NCBI GenBank assembly: GCA_023823795.1
Contig: CP085710.1
Coordinates: 4,180,001 to 4,244,000, forward strand
Direction of reading: 5' to 3'
Origin: Bacillus sp. F19
Lineage (GTDB): Bacteria; Bacillota; Bacilli; Bacillales; Bacillaceae
Length of the DNA stretch: 64,000 nucleotides
Made by a program: the position numbers and the translations under genes. The notes beneath the pieces were generated by a model. It worked only from the letters and a program-made list of their open reading frames with translations. It had not been told where the DNA came from and did no database searches. Below, piece after piece: positions 39,640-51,215 of the stretch (position 1 is the first letter of the stretch; every line of letters starts with the position of its first letter).

Positions 39640-41293
39640 CATCGTTATCAAGCTAAGCTCATGTAACGTCAATGATAAGCAAGATTGTTTCTTTTTTTCG
39701 AAAGTCTATATGTAGATGCTTTAAAGATTTGCATACGAAATAAACCCTAACGGGTTTCCTTTTTTGAATTAAGCCGCTTGATTATCAGACATGGTACAAT
39801 TGTAAACGACACCTAATATATCAAAGACTGTTTTCTTCTCATATCGATGAGATTTTCGCCCGTTTTGCTGTAGGAGGTTGAACAGGCGAAGTAAAACCTT
39901 TGATAGCTCTTGGGTGTCTTTCTGTATAGCTTGGAAAAGAAGAAGAAAATAATCTTTAATCATATATATGGCCTTATACTCACTCAGTTCTCGTTTCTTT
40001 TTCATAAGAAGTAATTGCCGCATTTGAAACATGATAGAAGAACAGAGTAGAATGGCAATCAATTGTCCATACAAATGGCACTCCCATCTTTCTGGTTATA
40101 TCTTTTTACACTGATCAATTTGAAAGAATGATTTCCACGTTTTAAATAAAATTTCGATTTGCCAACGTAAAGAGTACCAATCATGTACTTGTCCCATCGG
40201 GACAATATCTGTAGGAGTGTTTGTCATATATACATTGATACCACTGAGTCGTTTACTACGAGGAGAATACTTCATTCCTTTCTTTTTTTCTCTTACAGTT
40301 TGATCTTGTAATCGTTTTTGTTGTTGTTCTTTTGTTAGCCGATGAACAATCACACGAGTTGGTACTTTATCAGTCATTCCTACATAAGCGTCGGATATTT
40401 CGCATGTTTGTCCTGGTTGAAGTGAGTTCATTAAGACCTCCATATCTATCTGTATATACTCTGTACCTTTCTTGATTCTTCCATCTTGAAAATAATCAGG
40501 GTTGGGATTTTTTTGATAAATACGTGTATTTGATTTAATACGAGAGATATAGTAAGCCTTTTTATCTTGTATATGTTGAAGATCTTTCAAGTGAAAATAA
40601 CCTAAATCACGGATACATAAATCATTCGCTGTCACAGTTGGGACACACAGAGAACCATAGGTTCGATCATGTTGTTTACCTGGACCTGTATGAATATGTA
40701 GGAACTGTCCACTTAATAGATCATACTCAAGCTGAATCTTCACCCCCGCTGTATGACTGCATCCTCCTGCACCTGGATAAACAGATGAAAATACATCGTG
40801 AAGTTGAAATGCAGTTGAATCTAGGATACGAATACGCTTGAAAATAGAAGTGTATGGAGAAGTGAGCAGCTTAGTTGAAGATAACTTTTGGTTGAGAAGT
40901 TCGGCTAACACTTGTTGTAGAAATTGCACGGATGTGGCATTAAATCGTTGATTCAGTCCCTCAGGACTGATGAGCACTTCTGTTGATGCCTCTAAACAGC
41001 TACATAACTGAGTTAAAGAGGTTTTAGCGACATTTTGACTCATCCATACACATAAAGCGACTAAATCTTTTGCTTGGTACTTACTGGTTCGTTGTACAAA
41101 ACCAACATCTCTAGCAAGATCTCGTAAGAAATTTGGAGATAAGAAGTTTTGAATTTCTTGAGCAAATAGTTGTAATTCATCAGATACAGAAATAGACATA
41201 CAAAAACGCCATCCTTTCCTATGAGTCTACAGAAAGAATAGCGTATTTTTTTCATTTTAGGGGGTATTTTGTTTTGTTAGCTTGATAGCGATG
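39640..41293 (-). mobile_element. IS231-type (IS4 family) insertion sequence
   Basis: 1654 bp with terminal inverted repeats CATCGTTATCAAGCTAA and, at the other end, CATCGCTATCAAGCTAA. It is flanked by a perfect 11-bp direct repeat GGGTACCGCCA (39629-39639 and 41294-41304), the 10-12 bp duplication expected for IS231. The target is the start of a Tn3-type terminal repeat. The element carries one transposase gene interrupted by an in-frame stop. Confidence 0.92.
39769..41199 (-). pseudogene. IS231-type transposase with internal stop
   Basis: About 476 codons in one frame. The first 367 hold the DDE domain: RILDSTAFQL, IRDLGYFHL, and the IS4 signature Y-x2-R-x3-E-x6-K as YSLRWQIEILFKTWK. A single TAA at 40096-40098 follows DQCKKI. 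The same frame then continues [20 protein letters not shown] to [13 protein letters not shown] and the end. Some IS231 variants are naturally split, but this is a simple in-frame nonsense codon, so the copy is probably inactive or needs readthrough. Confidence 0.85.
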
Positions 41294-41847: not shown

Positions 41848-42390
41848 CTAAACCTCCAAATCTCTTGCTTTTTTTTTCGCCATTAGACGCTTATAAAAAG
41901 GAAAGCCAAACATATAATACCCTGAAAATGACAGCAGTATTAAGGATAAACCTGTCATAGTAAGGATACTGTATCTATACCAATTACCAAAGAAGGATCC
42001 ATCATGCAAAGTAATGAGAAAAGTTGAGTAATCTGGATTTGTAGATAAAACTTTTCCCGTACTTGCATCGATTTGAACACCTTGACTGTTATTAAAGCGA
42101 ACCTGGTAAACATTTGCACTTGGTCTATATTCAATTCTAAATATATCTTCAACCGATGCTACACTCGGAAGTCCCTGAGACGTGGCAATGGACACGACCT
42201 TATCCATAGGTATCGATTGACTTGGACTCGCCTCTTTCCCCGTCCTTAACTCATCAGCCACTCCGAGTGGTATCATATAAACAAGCAAGAGGCCTGTGAC
42301 TGCTATAAACATAAAAACAACAGATAAAATTAATCCTGCCCATTTATGTACTTTTCGGCTTAATTGATACAACTTTACAGATTTGGACAT
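41848..42390 (-). CDS. PepSY-associated TM protein (paralogue 2)
   Basis: 180 residues. TM1 (KWAGLILSVVFMFIAVTGLL), an extracytoplasmic PepSY-like domain (VYQVRFNNSQGVQIDASTGK VL), then TM2 (YSILTMTGLSLILLSFSGYY). The tail is basic. It is highly similar to the next upstream gene and clearly a tandem duplicate. PepSY_TM proteins of this size are often associated with redox or iron uptake functions, but none is proven here. Confidence 0.85.
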   Translation of the reverse strand: MSKSVKLYQLSRKVHKWAGLILSVVFMFIAVTGLLLVYMIPLGVADELRTGKEASPSQSIPMDKVVSIATSQGLPSVASVEDIFRIEYRPSANVYQVRFNNSQGVQIDASTGKVLSTNPDYSTFLITLHDGSFFGNWYRYSILTMTGLSLILLSFSGYYMFGFPFYKRLMAKKKARDLEV

Positions 42391-42444
42391 TGTTCCATCA
42401 CACTCCTTGACTTCTTTTTAATTAAACAATACAAAGGCCTATTA

Positions 42445-42984
42445 CTAAATTTCTAAATTTTTCGCTTTTTTTCTTACCATTAGACGTTTATAAAGAGGAA
42501 AGCCAACCATGTAATATCCAGAGAATGAAAGTAAGATTAAGGATAAACCTGCCATCGCTACAGCACTGAATTTATACCAATTACCAAAGAAGCTTCCATC
42601 ATGCATAGTAATGAGTAAGGTTGTGTAATCTGGTTTTTTAGATAAAATTTTCCCCGTGCTCGCATCCATTACAACTTCTTGATCGTTTGCTAGAACCCTG
42701 TAAACATGTGGACTTGCAGTCAATTCAATTCTTGAGATATCTTTGAACGACTTTACACTAGAAAACTCCTGAGAAGTAATGGATAGAACCTTATCAATAG
42801 GTATCGTTTGGCTTGGCTTGGCATTCCCCTCCACAGTATTAACACCCGAACCCAATCCAAGTTGTGTTGAAAAAACAATTAAAAGTCCTGTTACAGCTAA
42901 AAACATAAAAACAACAGATAAAATTAATCCTGCCCATTTATGTACTTTTCGACTTAATTGATATAACTTTACAGCATTTGACAC
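42445..42984 (-). CDS. PepSY-associated TM protein (paralogue 1)
   Basis: 179 residues with the same architecture as its neighbour: KVHKWAGLILSVVFMFLAVT (TM1), VYRVLANDQEVVMDASTGKI (PepSY core), HDGSFFGNWYKFSAVAMAGL (TM2 start). The TM regions are nearly identical between the two copies, whereas the extracytoplasmic loops differ, suggesting diversified sensing or binding parts. Confidence 0.85.
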   Translation of the reverse strand: MSNAVKLYQLSRKVHKWAGLILSVVFMFLAVTGLLIVFSTQLGLGSGVNTVEGNAKPSQTIPIDKVLSITSQEFSSVKSFKDISRIELTASPHVYRVLANDQEVVMDASTGKILSKKPDYTTLLITMHDGSFFGNWYKFSAVAMAGLSLILLSFSGYYMVGFPLYKRLMVRKKAKNLEI

Positions 42985-43708: not shown

Positions 43709-44539
43709 TTATTTTGTATTCTCCATTACTGGCACCCATACCCATGTTGAACCTTCCCTTTTAACACGCCCCACTCCTGGAAAAGGATAGTGGCACACAA
43801 ACAATAAAGCTTCCTTCTCTATTGCATCCTGCAAAAAACGTTTTCGTGTTTTTAACCCTAGATCAGGTGACATTTCCGCACGAATATGAGAAGGAAGATG
43901 GTGCAACGATAACGGATCGTTTAAAATATCCGAAGCCACCAATAAATAGTTCCCTTCCGAATAGAGAGTGAGGGAAAGATGACCTGTTGTATGTCCAGGT
44001 GCAATAAGAAGATGAACACCAGGAACTATCTCGATATCTGATGCAATTACGGTCTTCTGGTTCCTTAAAGGCTCTAATTTTTTGAATTCCTTTGATTGAG
44101 GATTGCTTTCCCATAGGTCCCACTCATCTTTTCGTATGATATATTCTGCATTTGGAAAAGTCGGTGATCCGTCATACGAGAGGCCTCCAACATGGTCCAT
44201 ATGCCCATGAGTAATAATAACAATGTCGATATCCTCTGGATAGATCCCTTGTGTTTCTAACTGGCCAAGTAACTTCCCTGCTGTTGGTAGATGATCCTTT
44301 CCAAATCCTGCATCAATTAAAATGTTTTTGTCACCCGTATCTATAAACATGAAATTTAGTGGAACATGAAAATCAGTCGGAATGTGATGAATGATGTCCT
44401 CCGGCGTATTCGCGAAAAAGAAGTCCTTGGTAACTGGGAAGGCTCCATCTGATAGTACCATTAACCTAAATGTTCCTAGTTGAAAAGGGAATATTGTAGA
44501 GCTCATGTTATATTCTTTGAAACCATTTATAGTCCACAT
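43709..44539 (-). CDS. MBL-fold hydrolase of the Zur-linked operon
   Basis: 276 residues; lactonase-like metallo-β-lactamase fold. Metal motif HGHMDHVGG at about 111-119, IAPGHTTGHLS (His), LLVASDILND (bridging Asp) and the late His in VCHYPFPG. The ATG at 44506 (MSSTIFPF) may be the real start, since the extra 11 residues are not typical. Last gene of the minus-strand operon, 18 bp after SufU. As a zinc enzyme in a zinc-starvation operon its presence is surprising; it may use another metal. Confidence 0.82.
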   Translation of the reverse strand: MWTINGFKEYNMSSTIFPFQLGTFRLMVLSDGAFPVTKDFFFANTPEDIIHHIPTDFHVPLNFMFIDTGDKNILIDAGFGKDHLPTAGKLLGQLETQGIYPEDIDIVIITHGHMDHVGGLSYDGSPTFPNAEYIIRKDEWDLWESNPQSKEFKKLEPLRNQKTVIASDIEIVPGVHLLIAPGHTTGHLSLTLYSEGNYLLVASDILNDPLSLHHLPSHIRAEMSPDLGLKTRKRFLQDAIEKEALLFVCHYPFPGVGRVKREGSTWVWVPVMENTK

Positions 44540-44557
44540 TAAAATGTTTTTTATGAA

Positions 44558-45004
44558 CTATAAGGTATCGTATGCCTCCTCATCGTTTAAAATTTTGTCT
44601 AGTGCTTGCCAAGTCATTAACGCGCAATTGTGTCTTGCTTTTAATTGATGGACACCTTGAAGCGATAGACTATCACCTAGATCTACTCCGTCCACTACTT
44701 CTCCATGGACTAATAACTGCTCAAATGCTTTTCTAAAGGTATAAATCTCTTTAAGAGTCCTGTTTTGTATAAGCTCAGTCATCATAGATGCAGATGCCAT
44801 ACTTATGCTGCACCCCTCACCCAAGAACGTTGCTTTTTTGACCAGATCACAATCAAGATCTAAATATAACGTCATGACATCCCCACACGTAGGATTCTTA
44901 TAATGGATACTCCGCACATTTTTTCCTGTTAACTCTTCGAAGTTTCTTTTATATCGATAATGATCCATGATAACTTGGCGGTACAGGTTATCTAGCATAA
45001 TCAT
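44558..45004 (-). CDS. SufU-like Fe-S scaffold/sulfurtransferase paralogue
   Basis: 148 residues, IscU/NifU fold. The motifs NPTCGD (Cys40, Asp42), GEGCSIS (Cys65) and HNCALMTW (Cys127) preserve all the ligands that bind zinc and accept sulfur in Bacillus SufU. It is not in a suf operon but between a COG0523 GTPase and an MBL hydrolase downstream of a Zur box, so it is probably a second, zinc-limitation-induced copy. AAAGGAG precedes the ATG. Possible roles: taking over sulfur transfer when the housekeeping SufU lacks zinc, or a zinc donor partner. Confidence 0.85.
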   Translation of the reverse strand: MIMLDNLYRQVIMDHYRYKRNFEELTGKNVRSIHYKNPTCGDVMTLYLDLDCDLVKKATFLGEGCSISMASASMMTELIQNRTLKEIYTFRKAFEQLLVHGEVVDGVDLGDSLSLQGVHQLKARHNCALMTWQALDKILNDEEAYDTL

Positions 45005-45082
45005 AAATCTCCTTTAACGAAATTAAATGGCTCTTCTGTTAGGATAGTATCGTTTTCGTTCTTCCAGGATATAGAGGTTAGT

Positions 45083-46072
45083 TTAGGTTGCTATGCAATG
45101 TTTAAATTGCTGCTCAAGCGCCTCTTTGTCTAAATTTTTCCCGATAAAGACAAGTTCACTGATCCTCGTTTCATTATCTTTCCACTTACGATCTGGACTC
45201 CCTGAAAACAACATATGCAGACCTTGGAAAACCAATCGCTCTTCTCTGTCCTGGATATATAAAATCCCCTTATAACGCAAGAGATCTTCTCCTTTCTCTC
45301 GAACAAGGTAACTCATCCATCGATTTACTTTTTCAAAGTCTAGTGGTTTCTCTTCCCTAAAGGCAATCGATGACACCTTATCATCATGATGGTGTTGGTG
45401 ATGATCTTCCAAAAAATGAGGATCAATTTCAAGTTTACGGTTGAGATCGAATGTATGAATCCCGAGGATATCTTTTAGATTTATATTGCAATTTTGAGCA
45501 TGCATTCTCTTAGCTGCTGGATTCATCTTGGAAATTCTTCGCTCTAAAAAGGTTTGATTATCTTCTGTTACTAAGTCTGTTTTATTTAAAATAATCACAT
45601 CGGCAAATGCAATCTGCTCTTGTGCTTCATCATGACCATCTAAGTGCTTGGTGATGTGCTTACTGTCAACTACGGTGATTATACTATCTACTTCAAATTT
45701 TTCAGATAGTAATTCATCCATAAAAAAGGTTTGAGCAACAGGTGCTGGGTCAGCTAAACCCGTTGTTTCGATTAAAACTCGATTAAATTTTACGCTTCCT
45801 TGGTCCATTGAAAAAACTAGAGTCCTTAAGATTCGAATTAAATCTCCTCGTACTGTACAACAGATGCAGCCATTATTCATTTCTAAGATTTCTTCATCGG
45901 CATCAACGACTAGTTGATTGTCTATCCCTACTTCTCCATACTCATTAACAATAACGGCGATTTTTTGATTATGCTTTTCAGTAAGGATCCGATTTAAAAG
46001 AGTTGTTTTCCCTGCACCTAAATATCCCGTTAATATAGTAACAGGTATTTTATTTGATTTGATCAACGTCAT
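45083..46072 (-). CDS. COG0523 (CobW/ZagA-type) GTPase metallochaperone
   Basis: About 329 residues. GYLGAGKT (16-23, Walker A), the metal-binding CxCC as GCICCTV (68-74), NKTD (GTP specificity), and a histidine-rich loop (DHHQHHHDD) before the C-terminal CobW_C domain. This is the Zn-related COG0523 subfamily. The likely start is ATG 46072 after AAGGAA. It lies 10 bp after the ferredoxin gene in the divergent Zur operon. Such GTPases deliver Zn to client enzymes under starvation. Confidence 0.9.
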
Positions 46073-46084
46073 CACTTCCTTTAT

Positions 46085-46477
46085 CTACAATATTTTCGAT
46101 ACTTTTTTAACTTTTTCTGTGTCTTTTGGAATCCCAGTGACAACTTCCTCTTCGCGATTAAAACCATGTCCATGAAATGTATGGCTTACTTTCTCTAGAT
46201 AATCTTCATTGGCAAGAAGAGAATCAACAAATGGAGAGGCATCTTCAGGTTTCAAATCCTTATACCATGTTCCTTTTGGATAATCGATGACAACGCATTT
46301 ATCATGGCATCTTCCATTGCAACGGGTCCGCGTTGTGTGGATGGTATCATCCATCTCTCGTTCTGAGATTTCCTTTCGAATAGCTTGTGTTAGTTCTTCT
46401 GCTCCGACCTGATTACAACTGCTGCCATTGCAAATAAGGATATGATGCTTTGTATTGCTTAAATCCCATGTCGCCAT
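46085..46477 (-). CDS. thioredoxin-like [2Fe-2S] ferredoxin
   Basis: 130 residues. The N-terminal thioredoxin-like fold has ICNGSSCNQVG (Cys16, Cys21) and TRCNGRCHDKCVV (Cys53, Cys57, Cys61), the cysteine pattern of (2Fe-2S) ferredoxin-domain proteins; there is one cysteine more than the minimal four. GGAGGG lies upstream of the ATG. First gene of the minus-strand operon, about 100 bp from a Zur box. Probably an electron donor or Fe-S carrier for a downstream protein. Confidence 0.82.
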   Translation of the reverse strand: MATWDLSNTKHHILICNGSSCNQVGAEELTQAIRKEISEREMDDTIHTTRTRCNGRCHDKCVVIDYPKGTWYKDLKPEDASPFVDSLLANEDYLEKVSHTFHGHGFNREEEVVTGIPKDTEKVKKVSKIL

Positions 46478-46577
46478 ATATGACTTCCCTCCATTAATAG
46501 GCCTCTTTTATTTTCGAAATGAAGACCTTTAATAAACTCATCTTGTTAAAGTTCAGATTAACATGTATCATTACTTC

Positions 46578-46598
46578 AAATCGTAATAATTACGATTT
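46578..46598. promoter_or_regulatory. Zur box 1
   Basis: The palindrome TCGTAATAATTACGA with AAA/TTT flanks is a near-perfect match to the Bacillus Zur consensus (TCGTAATnATTACGA). It lies between the divergent ferredoxin and COG0523 genes, closer to the former. Confidence 0.9.
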
Positions 46599-46769
46599 AC
46601 AATGTTATTTTATCTCTTCTTTTCTTTATTAGCAAATGCAAAAACATTCCCATGGAATAAAAAGCTATCCAATCTATAAGGTTATGTTAGGTCAAATAAC
46701 GATAAATGGTTCACGCGAAAAATTGAAGAATAGTCATCTTTTTTAAACATAGACATAAATCATTGGGTT

Positions 46770-46790
46770 AAATCGTATTCATTACGAATT
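46770..46790. promoter_or_regulatory. Zur box 2
   Basis: TCGTATTCATTACGA, one mismatch from the palindrome, about 10 bp before the ribosome site of the plus-strand COG0523 gene. Zur would block initiation there when zinc is sufficient. Confidence 0.88.
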
Positions 46791-46810
46791 ATTTGTGAGG
46801 AGGAATGGAA

Positions 46811-47767
46811 ATGAAAAAGGTATCCGTTTACGTGATAAATGGTTTTTTAGGCAGTGGGAAAACAACCATGTTGCTAAAGTTGGTAGAACAATATAAAAAA
46901 GAAAACAAGAAAGTGGCTATTATCTTAAATGAATTAGGGGCAGTTCATGTTGAAGGTCATTTGTTTAAGGGCCAGCAATTAATTGAGCTTTTAAATGGAT
47001 GCATTTGCTGCACCATTCAAAATGATTTACACCTAACACTCCAATCTTTAATAATTCAGCATGAAAGTGAGCCCATTGATGTTTTGTTGATAGAAGGAAC
47101 GGGAGTCGCCCATCCTCTTGAAATAGCAGAGGTCTTTACGCCTGCTTCTATGAAAAAAGTGTTTGATTTGAAATCAATCATCGGCATAGTGGATGCCAGC
47201 CACTTTTTAAATTACCTAAGTATTTTTTCAAGTTCAAAAGAAATTCGAACTCTAATGAAGGAGCAAGTACTACATTCATCTATTGTTCTACTAAATAAAA
47301 TAGACTGTGTGGATGACGTGCTCCTCCCTAAAATTCACAAAAAAGTTGATTCGTTAAAAAAGAATGAGGTTCCCGTATTGATGACTTCCTACGGTGCCAC
47401 CGATTTTAGTGAAATCCGAAAGGATCGCTTTGAACCTAAAAATTCAAGGCCCCCAACAACAGCCAATGATCATCACCATGAGCATGAGTCGCATCACAGT
47501 ACCATAAAGACAATAAAAATGGAAAAAGTGCCCATGATGGACAAGCAGCTATTAACCAAGTGGCTAAACAATCTACCGAAAGACGTAATTCGTGTCAAAG
47601 GCCTCGTACAATTCAAGGGGGATTCACATCTTACACACATCCAGTATGCAGATAAGCTGGTACGTTATACATCAACAGAAAAAAGTGATCAGAGACAACC
47701 TATTTTAGTATTGATTGGAAAAGATTTGACCAAAGATCTGTTTCTTTCATTCCCCAATGATTTCTAA
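46811..47767 (+). CDS. second COG0523 GTPase metallochaperone
   Basis: About 318 residues. GFLGSGKT (11-18), LNGCICCTI (CxCC at 64-67), NKID, a His-rich insertion (NDHHHEHESHH near 220) and a C-terminal CobW_C domain ending LVLIGKDL. It is only distantly similar to its divergent neighbour, and the effector motif is ELGAVHVEG in place of [11 protein letters not shown] 46811 is preferred over 46805 because AGGAGGA directly touches the latter. Zur box 2 controls it; a terminator separates it from znuA. Confidence 0.9.
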   Translation: MKKVSVYVINGFLGSGKTTMLLKLVEQYKKENKKVAIILNELGAVHVEGHLFKGQQLIELLNGCICCTIQNDLHLTLQSLIIQHESEPIDVLLIEGTGVAHPLEIAEVFTPASMKKVFDLKSIIGIVDASHFLNYLSIFSSSKEIRTLMKEQVLHSSIVLLNKIDCVDDVLLPKIHKKVDSLKKNEVPVLMTSYGATDFSEIRKDRFEPKNSRPPTTANDHHHEHESHHSTIKTIKMEKVPMMDKQLLTKWLNNLPKDVIRVKGLVQFKGDSHLTHIQYADKLVRYTSTEKSDQRQPILVLIGKDLTKDLFLSFPNDF

Positions 47768-47831
47768 CGTGAAGAGTAACAATCTAGTTTTATAAAAAGA
47801 TTTTATAAAAAGAATGTTACCATTTTAGCCG

Positions 47832-47860
47832 ATCTATCGTTCTAAACGATGGATTTTTTT
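47832..47860 (+). terminator. Rho-independent terminator
   Basis: TATCGTT pairs with AACGATG (with GAT/ATC extension) and is followed by ATTTTTTTATT, about 65 bp after the COG0523 stop. Confidence 0.8.
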
Positions 47861-47928
47861 ATTACCCTATGCCAAGATTTCCCTTGTTCTTTTTAAAATT
47901 AAGTGGTAAATTATCAATGGTTAGCCTT

Positions 47929-47949
47929 AAATCGTAATTATTACGATTT
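47929..47949. promoter_or_regulatory. Zur box 3
   Basis: TCGTAATTATTACGA with AAA and TTT flanks, a perfect palindrome, 52 bp before the ZnuA start. It should control znuA-znuC-znuB and probably the dCTP deaminase gene. Confidence 0.92.
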
Positions 47950-48001
47950 GTAAAATATCAGAGAGTACACATATTTAAATGGATAGAAATGAGGAGAAAC
48001 T

Positions 48002-49033
48002 ATGAATCGATTAAACGTAAAAACAATGTTAGTAGCCATGGTTTGTTTTACAGTCATGGTGGGATGTAGCAATAAAGAGGATGTTACGTCAGGCCAAAAT
48101 GAAGAAGCCACAAAATCAGAGGAGAAGCTACATGTCGTCACGACCTTTTATCCTATGTATGAGTTTACTAAAAACATTACTAAAGATAAGGCTCAAGTGG
48201 ACCTCTTAATCCCTTCCAATATTGAACCACATGATTGGGAACCTACTCCGAAAGATATGGCTACCATTCAAAAGGCCGATCTACTCGTTTATAACAGTCC
48301 TTTTATGGAAACCTGGATTTCCTCTATCCAAGAAAGTTTGGATGAAGAACAACCCCTGTTTATCGAAGCGAGTGAGGGAATCAATTTAATGGAAGATACC
48401 GAACACGATCACCATGATGAAGAAGGCCATCATCATGACGAGGAGTCAGAGCACGATGATCAGGAGGCTGACCATCATGACGAGGATGAAAATCATCAAG
48501 AAGACAGTGAACAAATGGATCCACACGTCTGGTTAAGCCCTGTCCTTGCTCAAAAAGAGGTACAAACGATTACAGAATCTATAGTAAAACAAGACCCAAA
48601 AAATAAGGAATTTTATGAAAGAAATAGTAAAGAGTATATTCAACAATTGAAAGAACTAGATGAACTTTACCGAACAACACTGCAAAATGCTTCTAGCAAG
48701 GAAATGATTACCCAACATGCTGCCTTCGGGTATTTAGCAAAAGAGTATGGCCTAGCACAGGTACCAATTGCTGGATTATCTCCATCAGAAGAGCCAAGTC
48801 CATCTAAACTTGCTGAACTCAAGGAATTTGCTAAGAAGCATCAAATAAACGTGATTTACTTTGAAGAAACAACTTCTCCTAAAGTAGCTCAAACATTAGC
48901 TGGGGAATTAGGAGCTGAAACCGAGGTGTTAAATACATTAGAGGGTTTAAGCAAAGAAGATCAGGAGAAAGGGCTCAGTTATATTGAAGTAATGAAGAAT
49001 AACTTAAAGTCCCTTGAAAAGTCGTTTAAATAA
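48002..49033 (+). CDS. znuA: zinc ABC transporter substrate-binding lipoprotein ZnuA/AdcA
   Basis: 343 residues. Lipobox VMVGC (Cys22). Cluster A-I metal-binding protein with ligands His77 (EPHDWEPTP), His175 (MDPHVWLSP), a His in ITQHAAFGYLA and a late acidic residue in YFEETTSP. The very His/Asp-rich loop at 134-172 (EHDHHDEEGHHH and on) is the mark of zinc rather than manganese carriers. GAGGAG precedes ATG. First gene of the Zur-controlled importer operon. Confidence 0.95.
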   Translation: MNRLNVKTMLVAMVCFTVMVGCSNKEDVTSGQNEEATKSEEKLHVVTTFYPMYEFTKNITKDKAQVDLLIPSNIEPHDWEPTPKDMATIQKADLLVYNSPFMETWISSIQESLDEEQPLFIEASEGINLMEDTEHDHHDEEGHHHDEESEHDDQEADHHDEDENHQEDSEQMDPHVWLSPVLAQKEVQTITESIVKQDPKNKEFYERNSKEYIQQLKELDELYRTTLQNASSKEMITQHAAFGYLAKEYGLAQVPIAGLSPSEEPSPSKLAELKEFAKKHQINVIYFEETTSPKVAQTLAGELGAETEVLNTLEGLSKEDQEKGLSYIEVMKNNLKSLEKSFK

Positions 49034-49087
49034 ATTGAAGTAGATTAATGAATTTTAAAAAGTGTGCGTCAGAGAGGAATAGAAAAA

Positions 49088-49795
49088 GTGAAACTTGTTT
49101 CTTTGTCTAATGTCGTTTTTGGATATTCCCATACTCCATCATTAAACGGAGTGTCCTTTGAAATTCAAAGTGGTGAATTTGTTGGCGTTACCGGTCCTAA
49201 TGGAGCGTCCAAATCAACATTGCTACGAGTCATGCTAGGTTTACTAAAACCTTGGGAAGGAACGGTAACACTAAGTAAAAATAATGCCGAAGGAAAACGC
49301 CTTACTATTGGGTACGTCCCCCAACAAATTGCCTCTTTTAACACGGGTTTTCCAAGTACAGTTTTGGAACTTGTGTGTTCTGGAAGATTTACTAAGTACA
49401 AATGGTTTAAAAGGTTAAACCGTGAAGATGAAGAAAAGATAGAAAATGCCTTAAAAATGGTGGGGATGTGGGAATTTCGTCATCATAAAATTGGTGCTTT
49501 ATCTGGAGGCCAAAAGCAAAAAATAATTATTGCCAGAGTCCTTGCTGCCGATCCTGATTTATTGGTATTAGATGAACCGACAACTGGAATGGATGCAGAG
49601 AGCAGAAAAGGATTTTATGACTTTATGTCCCACCAGGTGAAAACACATAGTAGGACCATTGTGATTGTCACACATGAACAGAATGAAGCACAGAAATATT
49701 TAGATAAAATGATTCGTTTAGAGAGGGGTGAAAAAGGTGGATGGAAATGTTTAACTTGGAATTCATGCAGCGAGCATTTTGGGCAGGCGGATTAA
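49088..49795 (+). CDS. znuC: zinc ABC transporter ATP-binding protein ZnuC
   Basis: 235 residues. The Walker A is GPNGASKST, with Ser in place of the usual second-last Gly, a variant I recall from other Bacillus ZnuC/AdcC proteins. Q-loop in VPQQIASF, signature LSGGQKQK, Walker [13 protein letters not shown], switch His in VTHEQ. GTG at 49088 (VKLVSLSN) is preferred, with GAGAGGAA upstream. Its 3' end overlaps the permease gene by about 50 bp in another frame. Confidence 0.93.
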
Positions 49796-50589
49796 TAGCC
49801 ATTCTTGCGCCTATATTAGGCGTATACCTCGTATTAAGAAGACAAGCCTTAATGGCAGATACGTTGTCCCATATATCTCTGGCTGGCGTAGCCATTGGTT
49901 TTTTTATTCATACAGATATTACCCTATCAAGCATTCTTGTTGTAATAGCAGGAGCAATAGGTATTGAATACATGAGGCGTGCCTATCAAAGCTATTCAGA
50001 GGTTTCAATTGCGATTTTAATGGCAGCAGGTCTATCCTTCGCCTTATTCTTAATTAGTATAAGTGAAGGTGGAATGACACCCAGCATTGAGCAGTATTTA
50101 TTTGGATCGATTGTCACAATCAGCTGGGAACAACTTTATGTAATGGGTGGAGTCACCGCACTAACACTCCTTTACTTCTTTATGTTAAAGAGGCCACTAT
50201 ACTTAATGACATTCGATGAAGATACGGCTTTTACAAGTGGCATCAATACAAATCTATTGTCCCTATCCTTTAGTATTTTAGTTGGTTTAGCTATTTCAGT
50301 CATTATACCAACGATTGGCGTACTTTTAGTTTCAGCTCTATTGATTTTGCCGGCTGCTTTTGCAATCAGATTCGCAAAAGGGCTTAAAGTAGTTATTTTG
50401 ACCGCTATTCTAATTGCCATTTTTAGCATCTTTTCAGGGTTAGCCTCTTCCTATACCTTAGGCACTCCCCCAGGTGCTACCATTACTTTATTATTGGTCA
50501 TCATCTTATTCATTGGGTTTCTCAGTCAGAAGATAATACTAACTTTCAATAGAAAAATGAAGCGCAGAACACGCCAGCAAAGCTTGTAA
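49747..50589 (+). CDS. znuB: zinc ABC transporter permease ZnuB
   Basis: About 280 residues, eight or more TM helices of the ABC-3 family: [40 protein letters not shown] (the cytosolic EAA-like loop), [14 protein letters not shown] near the end. ATG 49747 has AAGGTGG six bases upstream; 49741 is an alternative. Translationally coupled to znuC. Confidence 0.93.
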
Positions 50590-50639
50590 GTATCCGTTAC
50601 AGATAATTGTAGAAAATAGTGATCCGGAGGTACACGGTT

Positions 50640-51215
50640 ATGATCCTGTCTAGTAAAACGATCTTAAAGAAAATAAAAGAAAAAGAGATTATTATTGAAC
50701 CACTTATATCATCCCAGCTTCAACCGGCTTCTATTGATTTACGTATAGGAGGTCACTTTTTGGCCATCGATGAGCATTCTACCCCTCTCATTTCGCTGGA
50801 CAAACCAGCTATGTATAAAGAAATTTGCAAAGAGCAGATTATTATACCGCCTAAAGCCTTCGTGTTAGGAACAACCATTGAATATATTCGCTTACCTGCT
50901 AATATGACAGCCTTTGTAGAAGGAAGAAGTTCGATTGGAAGATTAGGGTTGTTTATTCAAAACGCTGGATGGATTGATCCTGGTTTTGAAGGACACATCA
51001 CTTTAGAACTTTACAACGCGAACTGTGTGCCCATTGAGTTAAAGGCAGGAAGGCGCTTGTGCCAATTAGTATTAGCTTGCTTGGATCAAGAAAGTACCCC
51101 CTATAAGGGCAAATACAATGGGCAAAATAAAGCAACGGAAAGCAGAATTTATCTTGATGAGGACACAGAAGAATTGAGTCAAAAGAGGAACAAGAAATTT
51201 AAAGAATTCGATTAA
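50640..51215 (+). CDS. dcd: dCTP deaminase (Dcd-like)
   Basis: About 191 residues, trimeric dUTPase/dCTP-deaminase fold. Signature motifs: QPASIDLRIG (28-37), VEGRSSIGRLG (93-103), NAGWIDPGFEG (108-118) and ITLEL (120-124, catalytic Glu region). GGAGG before ATG 50640. It lies 50 bp after znuB and has no promoter or terminator of its own visible. Dcd makes dUTP (or dUMP in bifunctional forms) from dCTP without zinc, unlike the Zn-dependent dCMP deaminase used by most Bacillus, so Zur control would make it a zinc-sparing backup. That role is inference. Confidence 0.88.
   Translation: MILSSKTILKKIKEKEIIIEPLISSQLQPASIDLRIGGHFLAIDEHSTPLISLDKPAMYKEICKEQIIIPPKAFVLGTTIEYIRLPANMTAFVEGRSSIGRLGLFIQNAGWIDPGFEGHITLELYNANCVPIELKAGRRLCQLVLACLDQESTPYKGKYNGQNKATESRIYLDEDTEELSQKRNKKFKEFD

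Follow-up and report, generated by a model that had tools for sequence, protein, structure and literature searches.

Which processes does a bacterium of the Bacillus type protect when zinc runs short, and can they be read from the genes that stand behind the binding boxes of Zur? The question is raised by a gene island in Bacillus sp. F19 (Bacillales; Bacillaceae), at positions 43,709 to 51,215 of a 64,000-nucleotide stretch (hereafter the window) that covers positions 4,180,001 to 4,244,000 of contig CP085710.1 (assembly GCA_023823795.1). The island joins a zinc importer (ZnuABC) and two COG0523 GTPases to a thioredoxin-like [2Fe-2S] ferredoxin (FDX), a paralogue of the sulfur-transfer protein SufU (SufU2), an MBL-fold hydrolase and a dCTP deaminase (dcd). 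What we observe are the boxes and the order of the genes, the conservation of both, the joint pattern of ComEB and Dcd, and a distinct SufU2 clade. We propose that the island is probably a zinc-starvation locus of three Zur-repressed units, which would provide zinc import, metal routing by the COG0523 proteins, and backups (Dcd for ComEB, and SufU2 with the ferredoxin for SufU). Predicted Zur control is well supported by the boxes, their positions and their conservation, and the best-supported candidate for an enzyme replacement in the island is dcd, which would stand in for the zinc enzyme ComEB.

Three predicted Zur boxes head three transcription units

The window was searched with AAATCGTAATNATTACGATTT, a Bacillus-type Zur palindrome that follows what we take to be the Bacillus Zur consensus, at up to 3 mismatches and with 100 dinucleotide shuffles as the control. 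Three matches were found against a shuffle mean of 0.00. The features of the island, with window positions, are:

43709..44506, minus strand: MBL-fold hydrolase (PF00753, 61.2 bits)
44558..45004, minus strand: SufU2, the SufU paralogue (TIGR01994, 148.7 bits, cut-off 92.5)
45083..46075, minus strand: COG0523 GTPase A with an NNGCICC motif, 9 bp behind FDX (PF02492 and PF07683)
46085..46477, minus strand: thioredoxin-like [2Fe-2S] ferredoxin (FDX), which opens the minus operon (PF01257, 28.5 bits, cut-off 24.8)
46578..46598, no strand: predicted Zur box 1, a match without mismatches at the head of the minus operon, 100 bp ahead of the ferredoxin start
46770..46790, no strand: predicted Zur box 2, 2 mismatches, 14 bp before the plus-strand COG0523 B
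46805..47767, plus strand: COG0523 GTPase B with an LNGCICC motif (PF02492 and PF07683)
47831..47855, plus strand: terminator-like hairpin with a T tail behind COG0523 B (7 such sites against 4.8 expected; weak alone)
47929..47949, no strand: predicted Zur box 3, 0 mismatches, 52 bp before znuA
48002..49033, plus strand: ZnuA-type zinc-binding lipoprotein with a His/Asp-rich loop, seen by eye (PF01297, 277.6 bits)
49064..49795, plus strand: ZnuC-type ATPase, a later start being possible (PF00005, 106.6 bits)
49741..50589, plus strand: ZnuB-type permease of the ABC-3 family (PF00950, 256.8 bits)
50640..51215, plus strand: dcd, dCTP deaminase, last gene of the znuACB unit (TIGR02274, 188.6 bits, cut-off 92.8)

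Domain calls from Pfam and NCBIfam agree, on both strands, with the gene names given in a preliminary description of the locus, confirming the ferredoxin, the two COG0523 proteins, the SufU paralogue, the MBL protein and the order znuA-znuC-znuB-dcd. That description had placed three near-perfect palindromes at 46578, 46770 and 47929; the positions hold, and near-perfect fits two of them better, 46770 being the weakest. Its two divergent sets of genes give way to three transcription units headed by the boxes, with the hairpin between COG0523 B and the znuA box: ferredoxin-COG0523 A-SufU2-MBL (minus), COG0523 B (plus) and znuA-znuC-znuB-dcd (plus). Intergenic gaps in the minus operon are 9, 78 and 51 bp when the MBL start is taken as 44506, which is likelier than 44539 because homologues are 262-271 amino acids long; similarly, the dcd start at 50640 is the likelier one because the alignment to PDB 4xjc begins at residue 8. 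Both COG0523 proteins possess CobW and CobW_C domains and a CxCC motif (GCICC, read in the translations), and both fall well below the ZigA equivalog cut-off of 600 bits (A 205, B 113).

Two other patterns were set aside. A Fur/E. coli-like pattern (TGATAATNATTATCA) gave 6 matches against 10.15 expected, and the Bacillus box was used in its place. A sigma-70 scan gave 21 sites against 24.8 in shuffles, and a -35/-10-like pair at 46635-46607 beside box 1 was not used as evidence.

With up to 3 mismatches allowed, the Zur pattern occurs at 15 sites of the whole genome (5.59 Mb, two contigs) and its reversed control at 2. The 15 sites form four groups of 4, 4, 4 and 3, the last three being those of the window. 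The genome possesses three FUR-family genes, of which the one at 3659018, located after a zinc-type permease gene, is by its sequence presumably the zur-like one.

Dcd is mostly boxed where ComEB is present

Relatives were drawn from 397 genomes of the order. We counted a locus as boxed if the palindrome, with up to 4 mismatches, fell in a stretch reaching from 400 bp before a start codon to 100 bp beyond it, the start being that of the gene itself or of any of up to eight co-directional open reading frames upstream of it with gaps below 200 bp. Chance was gauged with 60 shuffled palindromes, and loci from named genomes that overlap other loci were kept out of the counts. Neighbouring genes in relatives were labelled by BLAST to proteins of our own genome, themselves named by eye.

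Matches to dcd (TIGR02274) were found in 56 of the 397 genomes (57 loci), 54 genomes being over the cut-off. ComEB (TIGR02571) has matches in 385 genomes at E 1e-20 and passes its own cut-off in 337. Of the 38 dcd loci in genomes with a ComEB score below E 1e-60, 27 are boxed, compared with 4/19 where that score is weak or absent (Fisher p 6e-4, a value that ignores relatedness) and 0/11 in genomes without any ComEB match; shuffled palindromes at the 38 loci averaged 0.05. Genomes without a ComEB match number 12, and 11 of these belong to one family (f36), all 11 with dcd. The genes before a boxed dcd are often ZagA-like, FolE2-like, SufU2, COG0523 A or Znu, in several families.

In our own genome a single dcd is accompanied by a full ComEB and a dimeric-type dUTPase, and the sole trimeric dUTPase-type match is dcd itself. 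The closest solved relative of Dcd is PDB 4xjc (phmmer E 1.6e-62, residues 8-180 of 198), which we take to be the bifunctional DCD:DUT enzyme of B. halodurans. The window protein has GRSSIGR, a motif found in 64 of 67 distinct sequences of at least 150 amino acids and presumably the GRSS..R-type catalytic motif of dCTP deaminase. An earlier study of B. halodurans reportedly described the two dUMP routes as coexisting in several Bacillus species. Because dCMP deaminase requires zinc and the Dcd family works without it, the Zur pattern would give a reason for keeping both.

SufU2 and the ferredoxin are conserved with predicted Zur boxes

A SufU2 search of the same genomes gave 29 loci of at least 130 bits, one per genome and our own included, with ordinary SufU rows scoring at most 125 bits. 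Predicted Zur boxes with up to 3 mismatches are present in 27 of these 29 loci, again including our own, compared with none of nine ordinary SufU (SufU1) loci (8 of the 10 low-scoring rows of the order search plus our own SufU1), and shuffled palindromes, with 4 mismatches allowed, averaged 0.10 hits over the 29 SufU2 loci. Two SufU2 genes are without a box in the tested stretch, one with boxes 512 and 566 bp upstream (genome G172) and one on a 3.5 kb contig (G284).

The genome of Bacillus sp. F19 also keeps an ordinary sufCDSUB operon without a Zur box upstream. SufU2 shares 44% identity with the SufU of that operon and aligns with B. subtilis SufU over residues 4-143 of 148; SufU1 and SufU2 fall into separate clades (FastTree, midpoint root; support 1.0 and 0.86). 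Our 43 distinct SufU2 sequences are no random sample, since their loci had been selected for FDX, dcd or SufU2. In all 43, the window sequence included, the ligands Cys-Asp-Cys-Cys are kept, presumably the zinc ligands Cys41, Asp43, Cys66 and Cys128 in B. subtilis numbering. Immediately before the last Cys stands Asn in 42 sequences and His in one, as against Lys in 7/7 distinct SufU1 sequences, and the residue preceding that Asn/His is His in 39, Tyr in 3 and Pro in 1. According to the accessible portion of one study, the conserved SufU Lys stands where IscU has His, and zinc is essential for sulfur transfer by M. tuberculosis SufU (PMC10216065).

A zinc-free SufU2 arising through ligand loss was considered and rejected, as all four ligands are kept throughout; SufU2 is therefore no ligand-less replacement. 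With the ligands in place, SufU2 may need less zinc, may obtain zinc first via COG0523 A, or may hold another metal.

In three relatives the island ends, behind SufU2 or SufU2-MBL, with a FUR-like gene other than the zur-like one (L053:4556-4984, L216:11362-11790, L244:10808-11221); in the window no FUR-like gene was seen directly downstream of SufU2-MBL.

For the ferredoxin, some match was found in 26 of 81 genomes of the family. The close group (at least 200 bits) comprises 13 loci in 12 genomes, our own included, and the other 12 loci are boxed in 12/12 cases at up to 4 mismatches and in 11/12 at up to 3. Lower-scoring family rows that were read (below 200 bits) mostly have CbiW- or CopA-type neighbours, among the matches listed. 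Across the order, 24 rows of at least 153 bits occur in 19 genomes, and 16 of the 24 are boxed (our own counted); between 128 and 153 bits the box is present in 4 of 13 and absent from 9. Rows tested for boxes were those of at least 128 bits in the order search, and those of at least 200 bits plus the own-genome row 2690848 in the family search. The four cluster cysteines are present in 57/57 distinct FDX sequences, that of the window included. FDX and SufU2 occur together in 11 of the 19 FDX genomes against 1.4 expected, an overlap counted by hand and an expectation that ignores kinship. Distant FDX relatives comprise what we presume to be a cobalamin-operon ferredoxin, in some cases fused to other domains, and a copy beside what is presumably a CopA-type ATPase.

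At four loci (L125, L128, L129, L135) a box-less FDX stands, by eye, beside a large gene of ~922 amino acids, and at L128, L129 and L135 also beside a methionine-aminopeptidase-like gene. This last arrangement draws attention because methionine aminopeptidase is served by COG0523 proteins of the ZNG1 type, as stated in the available part of PMC13339975.

The MBL hydrolase

Homologues of the MBL protein at E 1e-70 or better, the only ones followed in a search that scored at most 8 candidates per genome, are present in 3 of 318 order genomes (G000, G172 and G188, our own counted). Relatives' loci with the order FDX-(COG0523 A)-SufU2-MBL are L053, L062, L230 (Rossellomorea), L231 (B. ectoiniformans) and L244 (Domibacillus). 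The closest PDB chain is 7y7u (E 7.4e-32), the closest solved chains being an MBL-fold hydrolase, organophosphorus/methyl parathion hydrolases and lactonases, and a metal-binding motif HGHMDH was recognized by eye. Assignment as an AidB/AiiA-type acyl-homoserine lactone (AHL) lactonase was rejected, the best model (AidB) giving 96.1 bits against an equivalog cut-off of 360, and the protein is accordingly named by its MBL fold only.

Taken from predicted boxes and gene neighbourhoods, SufU2, the ferredoxin and the MBL protein form a conserved module with Zur boxes. Their membership of a Zur regulon, as put forward in the preliminary description, is strongly supported by box conservation (27/29 for SufU2; 12/12 in the family and 16/24 in the order for FDX), and the comparison it had proposed, of the gene set near Zur boxes in relatives, returned conservation and not its absence. 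Its heading of enzyme replacements is best borne out by dcd, which it had listed without comment and which is the clearest case (27/38 boxed together with ComEB), and fails for SufU2 as a ligand-less substitute. Of its suggested Fe-S (iron-sulfur) or sulfur-transfer backup for times of zinc shortage, the backup itself stays plausible, as SufU needs zinc and the normal suf operon is without a box; a zinc-free SufU goes beyond these sequences.

Proposed mechanism and alternative readings

We infer the regulation itself and every biochemical step of the following scheme. When zinc is present, Zn-Zur would occupy the boxes and block transcription, as box sequence and position suggest. When zinc is low, ZnuABC would be made and would import zinc, and the two COG0523 GTPases, judging from known members, would route scarce metal to chosen clients, COG0523 A possibly favouring SufU2. 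ZagA sustains FolE in B. subtilis, according to the part of PMC13339975 available to us, and this pair thus offers a precedent for a COG0523 chaperone and its client. Dcd would convert dCTP to dUMP/dUTP, so that the path to dTMP would bypass ComEB, the dCMP deaminase that depends on zinc. SufU2 and the [2Fe-2S] ferredoxin would sustain Fe-S sulfur transfer once too little metal is left for the ordinary SufU, which is zinc-dependent. Given the SufU family and the zinc requirement of SufU, it is plausible that SufU2, FDX and MBL maintain sulfur transfer or Fe-S assembly.

A bolder version, which we advance tentatively as possible, sees a low-zinc Fe-S/sulfur branch in Bacillaceae, built of a functionally distinct SufU2 (whose altered Arg-His-Asn-Cys site would let it work on little zinc, on iron or on a cluster), its own ferredoxin and sometimes an MBL protein, together with zinc-free Dcd for ComEB. 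Fe-S assembly and thymidylate synthesis would then be Zur-protected points outside the B. subtilis model.

Several findings weigh against the scheme of import, routing and backups. The 0/11 group without ComEB is one family, so the dcd contrast is not phylogenetically independent. Among the 38 dcd loci with ComEB, 11 are box-less, seven of them ordinary and four diverged (25-35% identity); without the four diverged genes the boxed fraction is 27/34. Two of the 27 boxed dcd genes are 78-amino-acid fragments under the family cut-off, and four dcd loci are boxed in genomes where the ComEB score is weak. All 43 SufU2 sequences keep their ligands, so SufU2 may itself need zinc. Finally, 8 of the 24 order FDX loci are without a box, and FDX and SufU2 are also found apart.

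That last point, together with SufU2 lacking the SufU lysine (Asn in 42/43) and standing outside any suf operon in the window and in the relatives' loci read, would suit a reading that we hold to be rather unlikely, in which SufU2, FDX and MBL are a separate module and SufU2 carries metal or sulfur to a client (e.g. MBL or COG0523 A) only in zinc starvation. The close MBL homologues lie directly behind SufU2 in 3/3 genomes, and a like order is found in L053, L062, L230 and L244. However, such an MBL is missing from most genomes with SufU2 (SufU2 is present in 29/397 genomes and the close MBL in 3/318, draws that differ in size), and SufU2 retains the sulfur-accepting Cys and all ligands and aligns over nearly its full length with B. 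subtilis SufU.

The kept ligands could also mean that SufU2 mainly binds zinc very tightly and serves as its buffer or shuttle, loaded or unloaded by COG0523 A, with no role as a sulfur carrier. COG0523 A adjoins SufU2 in a number of loci, and M. tuberculosis SufU binds zinc with very high affinity (Ka 4.23e16 per M, in the accessible portion of PMC10216065). We consider this improbable, as more of a zinc-binding protein would cost zinc during starvation, and SufU2 is found without an adjoining COG0523 A in L061, L063, L124 and L230.

On the dcd side, the 11 of 38 box-less loci might indicate that dcd serves control of the dCTP/dUTP pool or a thymidine response, with the Zur link incidental, and B. 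halodurans dcdB is repressed by nucleosides. Against this stand the 27/38 boxed loci, with a control mean of 0.05, and the repetition of the arrangement in several families beside FolE2-like and ZagA-like genes, which make such a role very improbable. That the ferredoxin-SufU2-MBL trio is a mere passenger, near the zinc locus by chance and outside the Zur response, is scarcely credible: 8/24 FDX loci are without a box, but 27/29 SufU2 loci are boxed, whatever the gene order and in different families, and the control is close to zero.

Other genes near Zur boxes

Further sites and genes were noted in the course of the analysis. In our own genome, four Zur-type sites at 3.105-3.134 Mb lie mostly around an opine-metallophore-like operon (C1:3122860-3134138, L017) that comprises biosynthesis genes, a peptide-type ABC transporter and an MFS exporter (names by eye). 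The boxes of this operon stand at 3124552, 3131008 and 3134118, and recombinase-like and transposase-like genes are nearby. At 3.454-3.477 Mb, four sites stand beside C-minus S14, a ZagA-like COG0523 gene and a FAD protein (names by eye), the site at 3477293 being beside other genes. Four more at 4.071-4.078 Mb stand beside carbonic anhydrase, COG0523 genes, ZnuA and C-minus L31 (names by eye); of these, site 4071501 follows a FolE2-like gene instead of preceding it, and box 4074570 lies between a divergent pair formed by a beta-carbonic-anhydrase-like gene and a COG0523 gene (C1:4073920-4075792, L020).

A protein of 116-127 amino acids recurs near Zur boxes, often near C-minus S14, and is possibly a further Zur target. 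Our own copies are at C1:3454638-3455003 (no Pfam match) and 3105131-3105502 (similar by eye), and relatives carry it in L063, L121, L219, L244 and L156. A FAD/NAD(P)-binding oxidoreductase (Pfam) of ~385 amino acids (C1:3456580-3457737) is likewise found between or near Zur boxes in L053, L061, L156, L219 and L244. MoaB-like genes adjoin dcd, FDX or COG0523 near Zur boxes in L053 (12676-13233, PF00994), L054, L062, L228, L238 and L142. Behind COG0523 A or beside FDX near such boxes, a protein beginning MxxWYE(E/Q) was seen in L126, L131 (this copy with methyltransferase domains), L133 and L142, and a small His/Cys-rich protein of 113-114 amino acids was seen near Zur boxes in L141 (no Pfam match), L220, L278 and L279.

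Elsewhere in the window, two adjoining and closely similar membrane-type genes (~180 amino acids, 41848-42984) are likely a tandem duplication, and a transposase-like gene (40096-41199) adjoins the pair.

Comparison with known systems

If the scheme of import, routing and backups holds, it suggests that two essential processes of Bacillus-type bacteria are sensitive to zinc shortage, ComEB-dependent thymidylate synthesis and SufU-dependent sulfur transfer, each with a candidate bypass; it would explain why dCMP and dCTP deaminase routes are found together in some Bacillus relatives, and it yields a testable set of Zur targets missing from the B. subtilis model. By word search, ferredoxin, SufU and deaminase are absent from the main texts of the Zur/COG0523 papers so searched and of the ZigA paper, and deaminase and Fe-S are absent as words from the accessible part of PMC5007448. 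A literature search for Zur with dCTP deaminase, to which subscription papers and regulon databases were outside so that absence in print is not established, returned nothing relevant. Searches joining SufU with zinc or Zur, or comEB with dCTP deaminase and B. halodurans, returned none on the subject by title among the matches listed.

The nearest counterpart is the B. subtilis Zur regulon (znuACB, yciC/zagA, folE2, rpsNB, rpmEB, rpmGC, zinT), which the island resembles in palindrome type, as far as the consensus that we assume is right, and with which it shares a logic of import, a COG0523 chaperone and zinc-free replacements. In relatives, neighbours of FDX, SufU2 or dcd are labelled FolE2, C-minus S14, ZagA-like and Znu, all of them classes of the known Zur response in the available part of PMC5007448. 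Beyond the B. subtilis regulon, the island holds the SufU paralogue, the [2Fe-2S] ferredoxin, the MBL hydrolase and dcd.

Each of these can be set beside a known relative. Ordinary SufU (PDB 1xjs, 5xt5), a zinc-dependent sulfurtransferase, is like SufU2 in its Cys, Asp, Cys, Cys ligands and at 44% identity, whereas SufU2 forms a separate clade, has Asn in place of Lys (usually with His before it), stands behind a predicted Zur box and lies outside the suf operon. Compared with the 4xjc-type Bacillus dCTP deaminase, the dcd of this island closes a znuACB unit behind a predicted Zur box. COG0523 A and B have CobW domains, the GCICC motif and an upstream Zur box in common with the ZagA/YciC and ZigA chaperones, yet differ from ZigA in falling far under its equivalog cut-off. 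The ferredoxin belongs to the same thioredoxin-like [2Fe-2S] family as the cobalamin-operon ferredoxin that we presume to be CbiW (~50-57% identity), and CbiW/CopA-type sequences carry the same four cysteines (30/30); in contrast to FDX, the cobalamin-type operons that were read showed no Zur box. Taken together, we judge the island to be a new and larger variant of the known Zur zinc-sparing response.

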